From contig NZ_CP029186.1 in the NCBI RefSeq assembly GCF_003096035.1, positions 1,067,001 through 1,131,000 on the forward strand: a stretch of 64,000 nucleotides of DNA. Reading direction: 5' to 3'. The DNA comes from Flavobacterium album. Its GTDB lineage: Bacteria > Bacteroidota > Bacteroidia > Flavobacteriales > Flavobacteriaceae. How positions within the stretch are numbered: position 1 is the first letter of the stretch; each line of letters opens with the position of its first letter. Of this stretch, positions 14,456 to 36,110 are shown in pieces. A model generated the notes under the pieces. That model was given only the letters and a program-made list of their open reading frames with translations, searched no databases and had not been told where the DNA came from. Made by a program: the position numbers and the translations under genes.

Positions 14456-16030
14456 ATGGCAGAGATCAAACCAGCTGAAATTTCAGCAATATTAAAGAAA
14501 CAATTGTCCGGTTTTGAATCGGGTGCTACATTGGAAGAAGTGGGAACAGTTCTTAATGTAGGTGATGGTATTGCCCGTGTTTACGGACTTTCCAACGCTC
14601 AATACGGTGAGTTGGTACAGTTCGACAACGGGTTAGAGGCTATTGTACTTAACCTTGAGGAAGACAATGTGGGCGTAGTATTGCTTGGCCCTTCAACGGG
14701 TATCAGGGAAGGTTCTACCGTAAAAAGGCTTGACCGTATTGCTTCGCTTAAAGTAGGCGAAGAAATGGTAGGCCGGGTGGTGAACACCCTTGGGCAGCCA
14801 ATCGACGGTAAAGGCCCAATCGGTGGCCAGCTGTATGAGATGCCGCTTGAGCGTAAAGCTCCGGGCGTTATCTTCCGCCAGCCGGTAACTGAGCCGATGC
14901 AGACAGGTATCAAGGCAATCGACGCGATGATCCCGGTAGGCCGTGGACAGCGTGAGCTTGTAATTGGTGACCGCCAGACTGGTAAGACTACCGTTTGTAT
15001 TGACACCATCCTGAACCAAAAAGAATTTTATGATGCAGGCAAACCTGTATTCTGTATATATGTAGCGGTTGGGCAAAAAGCTTCAACGGTTGCAGGTATC
15101 GCAAAAACACTGGAAGAAAAAGGCGCAATGGCTTATACGGTTATCGTTGCTGCAAATGCTTCCGACCCTGCGCCGATGCAGGTGTACGCTCCGTTCGCAG
15201 GTGCTGCGATAGGTGAGTACTTCCGTGATACGGGCCGTCCTGCCCTTATCATCTATGATGACTTGTCTAAACAGGCGGTTGCTTACCGTGAGGTTTCCCT
15301 TCTACTAAGGAGGCCACCGGGACGTGAGGCTTACCCTGGTGACGTTTTCTTCCTTCACTCAAGGCTTCTTGAGCGTGCTGCGAAGGTTATCGCCGATGAC
15401 AACATTGCAAAAAATATGAACGACCTTCCGGAATCGTTAAGGCCAATCGTTAAAGGTGGCGGATCGCTTACTGCACTTCCGATCATTGAAACACAGGCGG
15501 GTGACGTTTCTGCTTATATCCCAACAAACGTGATCTCGATCACCGACGGACAGATCTTCCTTGAGTCTGACCTGTTCAACTCGGGTGTTCGCCCTGCGAT
15601 CAACGTAGGTATCTCGGTATCCCGTGTAGGTGGTAACGCTCAGATCAAGTCGATGAAGAAAGTTGCCGGTACGCTTAAACTTGACCAGGCACAGTTCCGT
15701 GAGCTTGAAGCGTTCGCGAAATTCGGTTCCGACCTTGATGCGGCTACACTAAACGTAATCGAAAAAGGTAAACGTAACGTGGAGATCCTTAAGCAGGCGG
15801 TTAACGATCCGTTTACTGTAGAAGACCAGGTTGCGATCATCTATGCAGGTTCTAAAAACCTACTTAGGAACGTACCGGTTAACAAGGTAAAAGAATTCGA
15901 AAAAGACTATATCGAATACCTGAAAGCTACACACAGGGGAACCCTTGATGCGCTTAAAGCAGGTAAATTTACAGACGAGATAACCGACGTGCTTGAAAAA
16001 GCCGCTGCCGAGATCTCTGCGAAATATTAA
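14456..16030 (+). CDS. atpA: F1F0 ATP synthase subunit alpha
   Basis: Regulatory nucleotide-binding subunit of the F1 head. The 524-residue protein carries Walker [11 protein letters not shown] (about 169-178), Walker [11 protein letters not shown] and the alpha-subunit signature [14 protein letters not shown]. Normal length. The following 137 bases before atpG are filled by inverted and direct repeats, which is unusual inside this operon. Confidence 0.97.
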
Positions 16031-33370: not shown

Positions 33371-35026
33371 TTAAAAACTAAAACTTATGCCTGAGTAAAG
33401 GCCGATAAAGTACGGCTTAAAGTTACCCGCATCCCTGCTGTAGGCATTGACCTGGTATTTAAACGTAGGTTCAAAATTTGCCTGGAACGATTTCCAGAAA
33501 CGGTATTTAAAACCCAGGCCGACATTAGTACTGAAATGTATGCTGTTGAGGTTTTGCGCCTGTCCTACATCGGTGCTGTAGCCCTGTGTGGAAACCACGC
33601 TAACATTGTTCTCATTAAGGAAAAGAGTGCTCATACCCCCAATCACGTCGATGCCGAATTTTTTGTTTAGCAATGCATACGACATTTCTACCGGAACCTC
33701 GATGTAGCCTGTTTTTTGCACCATAGAGCCATTGAAGCTTTGGTCTGACATCGAAGTGAACGCAACGTTCGGATTGCTTATAATAGGCTGCTGGCCTCTT
33801 GGGGTGACCACTATATTTGCTGTCCTGGCATTCGCCGAAACATTACTTGTCTGATCATTTAGCGATGCGCTGAACTGTATGTCGTTGGTTGAGTAATTAA
33901 GGTTTACGGTATTGATACCCGAACGTATGGAAAGCCTGTCGTTTACCGCATAATCGATGCCGATGCCATAGCTAAGGTCGTTGTCGAAACTTTTGCTGTT
34001 CCCGGCAAATTCACCACCTATCGGCGATCCTTGCGAAAGTGAGTTATAGAATATGGGCGCCAGCTGCGGCTTGATATTCCACTTGCCTTTGTTGCTGTTA
34101 TCGGCCAGGGCTTTTTCGCTGTCTTTTTTCGCGTTGAGTTTTTCCTGAAGCAGTTTTTCAAGCTCATTTTCAGGCACCTGTACCGCTGTGGTGTCAACAG
34201 GTGCATTGGCTATTGCCCCTTCTGTCGGAATGTCTTTTTTAATGATGCCGGTTTCCTGGCCTGCTTTATTTTGTACTGAAGCGTTCTGCGATGCCGCTTG
34301 TTTGGCAGGGTTTTTTTCGCTTCCCGCTGCTATCGCATTTTCATTGCTTCCCGATTTTTCCGGAAGGCCCTGTACTGCATTATTATTTCTATTACTTCTG
34401 TTAGTTTTGTTTTTTCCGGGTTTGTTTTTTTGCGCTGAAGAACTTTGGGCAACGGCTTCGTTAGCAAGTCCACCTTCTGCCTGCCTGATATTTTTACTTG
34501 TGTGTGTGCGATTGTTGCGCTTGTTCCCGGCTGCACCAGATTTATCATCATGGGCTACAGCATTGTTTGTTTTGCCAAAAGCGGTATTGTTTTCAGGCCC
34601 TTCAGCAGAAGTATTTTCAGTTTTCGTACCAATGCCATTTGTAGTGCCGCCCTTATTGCCGGAAGCATTCTCTCCGGAAGCCACGGCAGTATTTAGATCA
34701 TTGTTGTCTTTTTGGCTTTTCCCAATAATGGTTTCGTGGTTCTGTACCGGGTTGTCGGTAGGATAAATGCGCCTGTTGCCATTTTTATCTATAACAACCG
34801 GATTCTCATTGGTATTTGTGCCGCTATAATAGGGAGACATGAAGAATGTCCCTGCTACTAAAACCGCAGCCACGCCCGAAAGCCTTATCCACAGTGGGAT
34901 AACCCTTCGTTTTTTCTTTTCCCGGAGCACTTCCTCAATGTTTTCCCAAACAAATTCTGGAGGCGCTACTTCAAAGTCCTTGAACTTTTCCCGGAATAGC
35001 CTGTCTATGTTCTTTTGTTCATTCAT
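33371..35026 (-). CDS. Putative dual membrane-spanning anti-sigma factor (TM plus outer-membrane barrel)
   Basis: A 551-residue protein with an unusual layout. Residues 1-42 are cytoplasmic (DRLFREKFKDFEVAPPEFVW), 43-63 form one transmembrane helix, 65-313 are a disordered linker rich in Asn, Lys, Ala, Ser and Thr, and 315-551 look like an outer-membrane barrel ending in SGISFSF. It overlaps the ECF sigma gene by ATGA, so the two are translationally coupled. This matches the dual membrane-spanning anti-sigma (Dma) proteins described in Bacteroides thetaiotaomicron. Sigma binding by the N-terminus is inferred. Confidence 0.72.
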   Translation of the reverse strand: MNEQKNIDRLFREKFKDFEVAPPEFVWENIEEVLREKKKRRVIPLWIRLSGVAAVLVAGTFFMSPYYSGTNTNENPVVIDKNGNRRIYPTDNPVQNHETIIGKSQKDNNDLNTAVASGENASGNKGGTTNGIGTKTENTSAEGPENNTAFGKTNNAVAHDDKSGAAGNKRNNRTHTSKNIRQAEGGLANEAVAQSSSAQKNKPGKNKTNRSNRNNNAVQGLPEKSGSNENAIAAGSEKNPAKQAASQNASVQNKAGQETGIIKKDIPTEGAIANAPVDTTAVQVPENELEKLLQEKLNAKKDSEKALADNSNKGKWNIKPQLAPIFYNSLSQGSPIGGEFAGNSKSFDNDLSYGIGIDYAVNDRLSIRSGINTVNLNYSTNDIQFSASLNDQTSNVSANARTANIVVTPRGQQPIISNPNVAFTSMSDQSFNGSMVQKTGYIEVPVEMSYALLNKKFGIDVIGGMSTLFLNENNVSVVSTQGYSTDVGQAQNLNSIHFSTNVGLGFKYRFWKSFQANFEPTFKYQVNAYSRDAGNFKPYFIGLYSGISFSF

Positions 35027-35565
35027 TTTGCTGAAGGTAAACTATTTCCCTGCTGCGTTTCAATTTTTTCCTTTAATATCATCCTTGCCCGTGCAAGGTT
35101 CGATTTCGATGTGCCGTCGCTAATGCCCAGCATCTCCCCAATTTCTTTGTGCGAGTAGCCGTCTATCACATACAGGTTAAAAACCATCCGGTACCTGTCG
35201 GGGAGCGCCTGTATGATGGAGACCAGGAACTCCATACTCACTGAGTCGTCTTCAATTTCTACATCGGGCTCATCGGGAATGTTCTCACTAACGATATCAA
35301 AAATACCTTCTGTACGGTACCGTTGCAATACGTTATTCACCATCACCCTTTTGGCCCAGCCTTCAAAAGACCCTTTGAACTGGTACTGGCCTATTTTTTT
35401 AAATATAAGCAGGAAACCATCCTGGAGGTTGTCCTGAGCATCCTCATAATTGCGCGAGTACTTCAGGCACACCGCAAACAGCTTTGGGGCAAATAGCCTG
35501 TATAACTGTTCCTGTGCCTTTATGCTGTCCTTCTGACAATTCTGTATGAGTTGCTCTAACCCCAA
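35023..35565 (-). CDS. ECF RNA polymerase sigma factor
   Basis: A 180-residue extracytoplasmic-function sigma factor. Region 2 (LYRLFAPKLFAVCLKYSRNY, then EDAQDNLQDGFLLIFKKIGQ) and region 4 (LPDRYRMVFNLYVIDGYSHK, then EIGEMLGISDGTSKSNLARA) are complete. The longer frame runs into the upstream lipoprotein gene, and homologues start with a short MxLEQLI sequence, so TTG 35565 (GLEQLIQNC) is chosen. Operon order is lipoprotein, sigma, anti-sigma/barrel. Confidence 0.88.
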   Translation of the reverse strand: MGLEQLIQNCQKDSIKAQEQLYRLFAPKLFAVCLKYSRNYEDAQDNLQDGFLLIFKKIGQYQFKGSFEGWAKRVMVNNVLQRYRTEGIFDIVSENIPDEPDVEIEDDSVSMEFLVSIIQALPDRYRMVFNLYVIDGYSHKEIGEMLGISDGTSKSNLARARMILKEKIETQQGNSLPSAK

Positions 35566-35584
35566 TGAGTTCCATTTATTTTGT

Positions 35585-36010
35585 TTATTGATGTACCGGT
35601 ACTTCCATTTCAAGAAATTGCTGGTTACCGTCTGCGTCGTCTCCCTGGTAAAATTTAAACCGGTAGCTGGTGCCTGCATAGGTAGATGAACACGTAAAAT
35701 CAAATGATGACTCATCCGGCTCCAGCCCATCCAAAGGCGTGCATTGTGCATCTTCTATAACAAGGGTTTGTACAGCTATAATCTCTGCAGAAGTATCATT
35801 GGGATCATGATAAAAACCATCAAAATAGTAGCAGTCATTCGGCCTTTTGTATTTAACTTTGATCTCATACGTTTGTCCGAAGACCATTTCTTCAGGCATT
35901 TCTACGCTTACAACCGGAACAAATGCCACATGGAATTTAAGGGTGTCAGGCTCATCGGTACAGGCTATTGCCGCACCCAGAACGGCAAATAATAGTAGCA
36001 GCTTTTTCAT
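35585..36010 (-). CDS. Small lipoprotein of the sigma operon
   Basis: Unrecognised function. The 141-residue product has a signal peptide with lipobox AAIAC (Cys near 17). The mature part looks like an all-beta domain, with four Cys residues in QCTPLDGLEP, CYYF and FTCSS. It lies 19 bases upstream of the sigma gene and downstream of a candidate ECF promoter, so it could be a surface ligand or sensor component of the same system; that is inference. Confidence 0.65.
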   Translation of the reverse strand: MKKLLLLFAVLGAAIACTDEPDTLKFHVAFVPVVSVEMPEEMVFGQTYEIKVKYKRPNDCYYFDGFYHDPNDTSAEIIAVQTLVIEDAQCTPLDGLEPDESSFDFTCSSTYAGTSYRFKFYQGDDADGNQQFLEMEVPVHQ

Positions 36011-36045
36011 AAATCGTTTCTAAATATAATTTCCACTTATGTTCG

Positions 36046-36073
36046 TTAGATGCACGAAACCCCGAAAGGTTGC
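36046..36073 (-). promoter_or_regulatory. Candidate ECF-type promoter of the sigma operon
   Basis: On the minus strand GCAACC (36073-36068) and CATCTAA (36052-36046) are separated by 15 bases. AACC at -35 with a CGTC/CATC-like -10 about 16 bases away is the typical ECF promoter form. No TAnnTTTG is nearby. Confidence 0.45.
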
Positions 36074-36087
36074 GTGTTTAAACAAAA

Positions 36088-36110
36088 AAAACCCGAAATA
36101 TTCGGGTTTT
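36088..36110 (-). terminator. recA terminator
   Basis: AAAACCCGAA (36088-36097) pairs with TTCGGGTTTT (36101-36110). On the minus strand it runs into eight T residues. It lies just after the recA stop. Confidence 0.82.

Follow-up and report, generated by a model that had tools for sequence, protein, structure and literature searches.

A lipoprotein-led ECF sigma operon with a Dma-type anti-sigma protein in Flavobacterium and a candidate promoter for its regulon

An operon of Flavobacterium album encoding a small lipoprotein, an ECF sigma factor and a 551-aa protein probably constitutes an autoregulated envelope-stress switch (we put the probability at about 0.7). In this switch the 551-aa protein would be a double-anchored inhibitor of the sigma factor, the regulon would be defined by promoters of the form CGCAACC-N15/16-ATCT and the lipoprotein would be an output. 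The layout of the 551-aa protein is not new as such since Dma anti-sigma factors are already known. What is new concerns the surroundings: genome comparison suggests that CGCAACC-N15/16-ATCT is a candidate promoter read by the operon sigma, it suggests that the same promoter also fronts other lipoproteins and a small RNA, and sequence statistics identify a spaced A-[V/I]-A array in the Dma tether. Coordinates below are those of the window, the whole 64,000-nt stretch analysed (NZ_CP029186.1, 1,067,001 to 1,131,000).

Results

The host genome consists of a single contig of 3.98 Mb. On the minus strand recA is followed by the genes for a 141-aa lipoprotein (35585-36010), the ECF sigma factor (35023-35565) and the 551-aa protein (33371-35026), with a convergent plsC behind the trio. 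The order lipoprotein, sigma, 551-aa protein given in the preliminary description is borne out by this arrangement and by its conservation in relatives, and the ATGA overlap of the last two genes is indeed present (35023-35026). The intergenic region between recA and the lipoprotein gene contains a terminator-like stem-loop on the minus strand (36090-36108; AACCCGAA..TTCGGGTT, followed by a T run on that strand). Comparable stems occupy this position in many of the relatives inspected, and it is probably the end of the recA transcript. Between the stem-loop and the lipoprotein gene lies the putative ECF promoter of the operon, CGCAACC-N16-ATCT (36048-36074, minus strand), with the -35 element at 36068-36074 and the -10 element ending at 36048.

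The sigma protein, identified with Pfam and NCBIfam, carries sigma-70 regions 2 and 4 (Pfam). Its mechanically delimited ORF, starting at 35751, is overlong; because the orthologues start with GTG or TTG we set the start at the TTG at 35565, 19 bases past the lipoprotein stop codon. Among the 80 named loci described below, the 12 commonest start-codon classes listed for sigma, which cover 76 loci, use GTG or TTG only, the gap between lipoprotein stop and sigma start has a median of 21 bases, and in the classes listed the exact 4-base overlap with the Dma gene occurs in 52 of 75 loci. A conserved weak start of this kind probably keeps sigma below the level of its inhibitor, which would fit a need for scarce sigma. 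The same genome encodes a paralogous sigma factor (45%; L002/L146), beside a gene that we take to be rpoD. Its anti-sigma-like partner, of 239 aa and with a basic C-terminus, is too short for a tether and a barrel.

For the 551-aa protein a Dma layout had been proposed, with a short cytoplasmic N-terminus, one membrane helix, a linker and a C-terminal barrel, and this proposal is supported by Pfam, a structure model, Foldseek and the operon context. The model, built on a 45-sequence alignment, contains helices at residues 3-18, 24-39, 46-67 and 288-310. The first two belong to the presumed cytoplasmic N-terminal domain (residues 1-42; 34901-35026, minus strand), which is conserved in the 45 sequences with the consensus NIDRLFxEKFKDFEVAPPEFVWENI; the third, hydrophobic in sequence, is the predicted single membrane helix (34826-34891, minus strand). 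Residues 68-284 (34175-34825, minus strand) have a pLDDT below 50 and presumably form a disordered periplasmic tether. For the C-terminus, where a barrel had been expected, the model yields eight long strands between residues 317 and 550, and the putative outer-membrane barrel of residues 317-551 (33374-34078, minus strand) ends, as previously noted, in a Phe, which is invariant in the 45 sequences. The match to OMP_b-brl (PF13505) scores 32.2 bits, above the cut-off of 28.7. The mean pLDDT of the whole model is only 48.8, so that only its layout is to be trusted, and with values of 37-78 in ten-residue blocks our confidence in the barrel is low to moderate. Among the best 50 of 671 Foldseek matches, 49 are outer-membrane proteins or complexes, including FhuA, OmpW and OmpA, the sole exception being a gasdermin pore at rank 40; an E value below 0.001 was reached by only one of the 671. 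A protein search in which 7995 candidates were scored returned at least 1323 relatives at E 0.001. In NCBIfam the 551-aa protein had a single match, weak and unrelated, and the Dma profile retrieved three weak matches from the PDB. By its layout, compared with the Bacteroides thetaiotaomicron Dma proteins by their description, the 551-aa protein is a new member of the Dma class, and according to the model it appears to reach from the outer membrane into the cytoplasm.

The tether contains the tripeptide A-[V/I]-A at residues 114, 156, 191, 231 and 271. Over 120 homologues the motif occurs 3.95 times per linker versus 0.42 times in shuffled linkers; it is preceded most often by NN, NT or NS (144 of about 474), and 206 of 356 spacings fall between 30 and 44 residues. 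With other linker boundaries the values are 1.96 versus 0.18 for 51 loci grouped as Flavobacterium and 1.17 versus 0.06 for 29 loci outside that group, AVA and AIA being the top enriched linker tripeptides in both sets. A spaced array of this kind, in a single chain that seems to span both membranes, is what one might expect if the 551-aa protein directly sensed the width of the periplasm or the stretch of its tether, and a direct report of periplasm width to the sigma factor had been suggested earlier. However, linker length varies from 221 to 344 residues (with the boundaries of the 120-homologue count) and the contour length of the tether far exceeds the width of the periplasm, so the tether should be slack. 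Direct reporting of width is unsupported, and we regard width or stretch sensing as highly improbable.

The homologue search and operon comparison envisaged in the preliminary description were carried out on two scales. A survey of 249 Flavobacterium genomes (cut-offs of E 0.001 for the lipoprotein and E 1e-10 for Dma, the latter including distant paralogues) found a lipoprotein match in 116 and a Dma match in 125. Ninety-seven of the 119 lipoprotein matches adjoin a Dma match and 22 do not; in all 97 adjacent pairs the lipoprotein is upstream on the same strand, the Dma partner in G110 being only a fragment. On these counts the adjacency is more than chance. The wider Flavobacteriaceae set comprised 80 named loci, taken from the matches listed and anchored on their BLAST match: the lipoprotein is found in 76, in every case in the order lipoprotein, sigma, Dma.

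Of 20 regions fetched from the Flavobacterium survey, 18 carry a lipoprotein match; the other two hold a Dma-only operon and a Dma fragment, respectively. The lipoprotein gene still follows recA in 16 of these 18 regions, sigma being gone together with the whole or nearly the whole of Dma, and it precedes plsC except in L077, where plsC gave no match. Fragments survive in two of them, of Dma in L062 and of sigma in L063; the remaining two regions, L078 and L079, matched none of the genes tested. At L062 and L081 only the last 60-65 Dma codons are left beside plsC, in a context with stop codons, and judged by their sequence these ends are leftovers of the loss of sigma and Dma.

The candidate promoter follows the sigma gene. 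All 45 sigma-bearing loci (distinct loci only, duplicates and those with fewer than 100 bases upstream having been dropped) have the pattern GCAACC, 14-16 bases, ATC ahead of the lipoprotein gene, versus one of 16 sigma-less loci, namely G110 with its Dma fragment. GCAAC is still present in the upstream stretch of eight of the 16. Among the wider Flavobacteriaceae the pattern precedes all 76 lipoproteins, versus 72 of 4000 random 150-base windows from the same loci. In two Winogradskyella loci with no lipoprotein match the promoter is retained, 177 (L371) and 154 (L374) bases ahead of sigma. A match lies 793 bases before sigma in L366, and L348 bears sigma with a different 250-aa lipoprotein and no promoter match. 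On a RecA tree of 66 rows, nine changes of sigma status are needed, three of them forced by well supported branches; the promoter tracks sigma in a mean of 2.9 of three independent supported pairs, which are too few for significance. At three sigma-less loci (L065, L070, L072) the lipoprotein promoter consists of GCAACC and a GTCT-like -10 element, and it has perhaps been handed over to another ECF sigma factor. A literature search of partial coverage returned no paper on a CGCAACC-N15/16-ATCT promoter or on a small RNA of the kind described below, and the accessible parts of PMC12596196, PMC10994844, PMC12611786, PMC12045153 and PMC12578637 contain nothing on the lipoprotein/sigma/Dma operon.

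Genome-wide, CGCAACC-N15/16-ATCT occurs at 429 sites versus 108 for the reversed pattern in the 100 genomes with a long Dma match, at 22 versus 15 in the 19 genomes with the lipoprotein but without a long Dma match, and at 396 versus 160 in the 130 genomes with neither lipoprotein nor Dma match. The last excess, in genomes that do not carry the operon, raises the question whether the motif belongs to a paralogous ECF sigma factor, the operon sigma differing in specificity or merely sharing the regulon. The motif also precedes paralogous operons of lipoprotein, small protein, sigma and Dma-like gene in G042, G244, G102 and G109 (L184-L187); these account at least partly for the excess, and some targets may be shared with the paralogues or belong to them. 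However, three genomes that lost the operon sigma while keeping the lipoprotein and a 45-48% paralogue have no motif excess (sites versus control: G005, 2 versus 3; G051, 2 versus 2; G191, 0 versus 0), and of the 16 loci without the operon sigma, 15 lack the motif in front of the lipoprotein. Ownership of the motif by a paralogue therefore seems to us unlikely, and we favour the operon sigma as its reader.

In the window's genome the motif occurs at 13 sites, one of which lies within a 566-codon frame. The 11 that were read are all intergenic: they precede the operon itself, four further lipoproteins, a leucine-rich protein with a T9SS tail and, at a distance of ~200 bases, a SusC-like gene, and four have no long ORF close downstream. 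One of these four adjoins a convergent gene, presumably deoC. One of the four lipoproteins belongs to a regulon family that can be aligned with the lipoprotein of the operon (hhalign 96.5%; identity 18%, counting the signal peptide). Reading was extended to 55 sites over ten genomes, made up of the 11 from the window's genome, six each from five genomes with 10-14 sites each, and 14 hand-picked from four other genomes with a leaning to promoter-like ones; in this sample 45 sites lie between genes, and at 23 the ORF that follows has a lipobox as judged by a loose pattern. More of the same target families turned up in a second set of motif regions.

Two further observations concern individual sites. 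At L106 (3096478 of the window's genome) a promoter-like site with CGTCT is followed by an ORF of 35 codons whose start resembles a signal peptide and which itself directly precedes a lipocalin-like target. Upstream of the SusC-like gene (L160:1362-1460, L117, L129) a terminator-like hairpin is flanked by an inverted repeat, one arm of which is the -10 element of the promoter. The arms covary over three species (GTATC/GATAC, GCATC/GATGC); this was not seen at three more distant loci.

In the small RNA, RNA X, TTGYTAYGAAAAAGA or a close variant of it occurs two or three times, and a terminator follows. A covariance model built from five genomes with the promoter excluded was run on the 249 genomes and gave nine matches at E < 1e-6, namely the five model genomes and G087, G024, G227 and G130, all nine of which have lipoprotein and Dma matches. 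CGCAACC and CATCT stand just upstream in nine of nine; as the model genomes had been found through the promoter, the independent test of the promoter is four of four. Eight weaker matches, of many, were read and none has the promoter within 150 bases. RNA X was also considered as a coding sequence and this was dropped, the ATG in the first repeat not being conserved. Two other candidate RNAs are clade-limited, RNA Z to three genomes and RNA W to two. A genus-wide RNA Z family was rejected, strong matches being confined to the model genomes G000, G208 and G033; the 19 weaker loci read have no promoter within 50 bases and many are gene ends with terminators. Finally, another exact TTGCTATGAAAAAGA without a long ORF is found at 15460 of the window's genome (L287) and is possibly a second X-type RNA with a different promoter.

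The operon lipoprotein has its lipobox cysteine at position 17 and is predicted to fold as a beta sandwich. It has no Pfam domain above cut-off, nothing in NCBIfam and no PDB relative at E < 0.1. At E 10, 16 members matched 10 Pfam families between them, none of which is a NigD family, and the similarity to the NigD-like fold is a weak fold match only. The preliminary description had called the lipoprotein an additional, unexplained part in first place; the first place stands (76 of the 80 named loci), whereas the part is no longer unexplained, its promoter marking it as a likely direct target of sigma. One could also imagine the lipoprotein as a sensor partner of the anti-sigma protein, binding tether or barrel and setting the signal, much as RseB is the sensor partner of RseA. 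Its place ahead of sigma and Dma in those loci would be in keeping with such a role, as would Cys60, Cys90 and Cys107, which are invariant in 16 sequences and suggest a conserved structure or surface. However, the lipoprotein persists behind recA in the 16 loci described above, where sigma and the whole or nearly the whole of Dma are missing, and the two Winogradskyella loci that have sigma, Dma and promoter gave no lipoprotein match. A sensor role is for these reasons rather unlikely, and the lipoprotein is probably an output of the circuit.

Discussion

The switch that we consider probable would work as follows. The barrel would anchor the 551-aa protein in the outer membrane and helix 46-67 would anchor it in the inner membrane, while by the Dma precedent the N-terminus would hold the ECF sigma factor and keep it inactive. 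If the barrel is misassembled or no longer held, the hold on sigma would be lost, by unfolding or by proteolysis of the tether, and the freed sigma would transcribe from CGCAACC-N15/16-ATCT promoters. Genome comparison suggests as its outputs its own lipoprotein-led operon, several other small lipoproteins and a small RNA, the last of these in one clade. The operon lipoprotein would be an effector or an envelope-repair product and not an obligate part of the sensor.

More tentatively, and with somewhat less than even odds in our estimation, Flavobacteriaceae may possess an RpoE-like envelope regulon governed by an anti-sigma protein spanning both membranes. In such a regulon one sigma reading CGCAACC-N15/16-ATCT would induce small lipoproteins together with small RNAs, the latter readjusting the expression of outer-membrane genes, and the signal would be released through the A-[V/I]-A array of the tether, whose motifs would serve for docking or cleavage. 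Dma proteins were recognised as a class only recently, and little is known about their signal and direct targets. The candidate promoter, the conserved lipoprotein output and the small RNA offer direct reporters of the circuit across a large environmental family, the promoter's position before lipoproteins and a small RNA makes the circuit testable, and the array in the tether is a concrete place to seek the signal-release step.

Dma1/Das1 and Dma2/Das2 of B. thetaiotaomicron combine an anti-sigma N-terminus, one membrane helix, a long disordered tether and a C-terminal barrel, as described in the accessible parts of the report (PMC13088901), and the operon of the window shares with them this layout and the neighbouring ECF sigma factor. 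In the dma2 mutant the operon neighbours are among the most induced genes; the Dma2 operon includes a DUF4943 gene, and NigD1 is needed for the Dma1 effect (the same parts of PMC13088901). In contrast, it is a lipoprotein that leads the Flavobacterium operon, the NigD1 family is only a weak fold match to this lipoprotein, and the circuit proposed here includes a promoter and a small RNA. A role of the Flavobacterium operon in vesiculation could be suggested only by analogy with B. thetaiotaomicron. In F. psychrophilum the SM6 ECF promoters have a -10 CGT box and serve T9SS genes, and one drives the putative regulatory RNA Rfp11 (accessible parts of PMC9723704). They resemble the promoters described here in being of ECF type, in the same genus and in one case before a regulatory RNA; they differ in the -10 element, which is CATCT here, a sequence not mentioned for SM6 in those parts of the report, and in the T9SS genes that they serve.

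Closer to hand, the paralogous ECF operons L184-L187 likewise begin with the promoter, followed by a lipoprotein and a small protein, then sigma and a gene with a Dma-like start, the likeness being that of the start only as this last gene runs past the fetched stretch. Unlike the operon of the window they have a different lipoprotein, of 291-292 aa, and a sigma factor that is 44-45% identical. In enterobacteria the envelope ECF sigma factor RpoE, controlled by RseA, drives envelope genes and the small RNAs MicA and RybB. The circuit proposed here would resemble it as an envelope ECF sigma factor with envelope-gene and small-RNA targets. It would differ in its inhibitor: RseA ends in the periplasm, whereas the Flavobacterium protein seems to reach the outer membrane.
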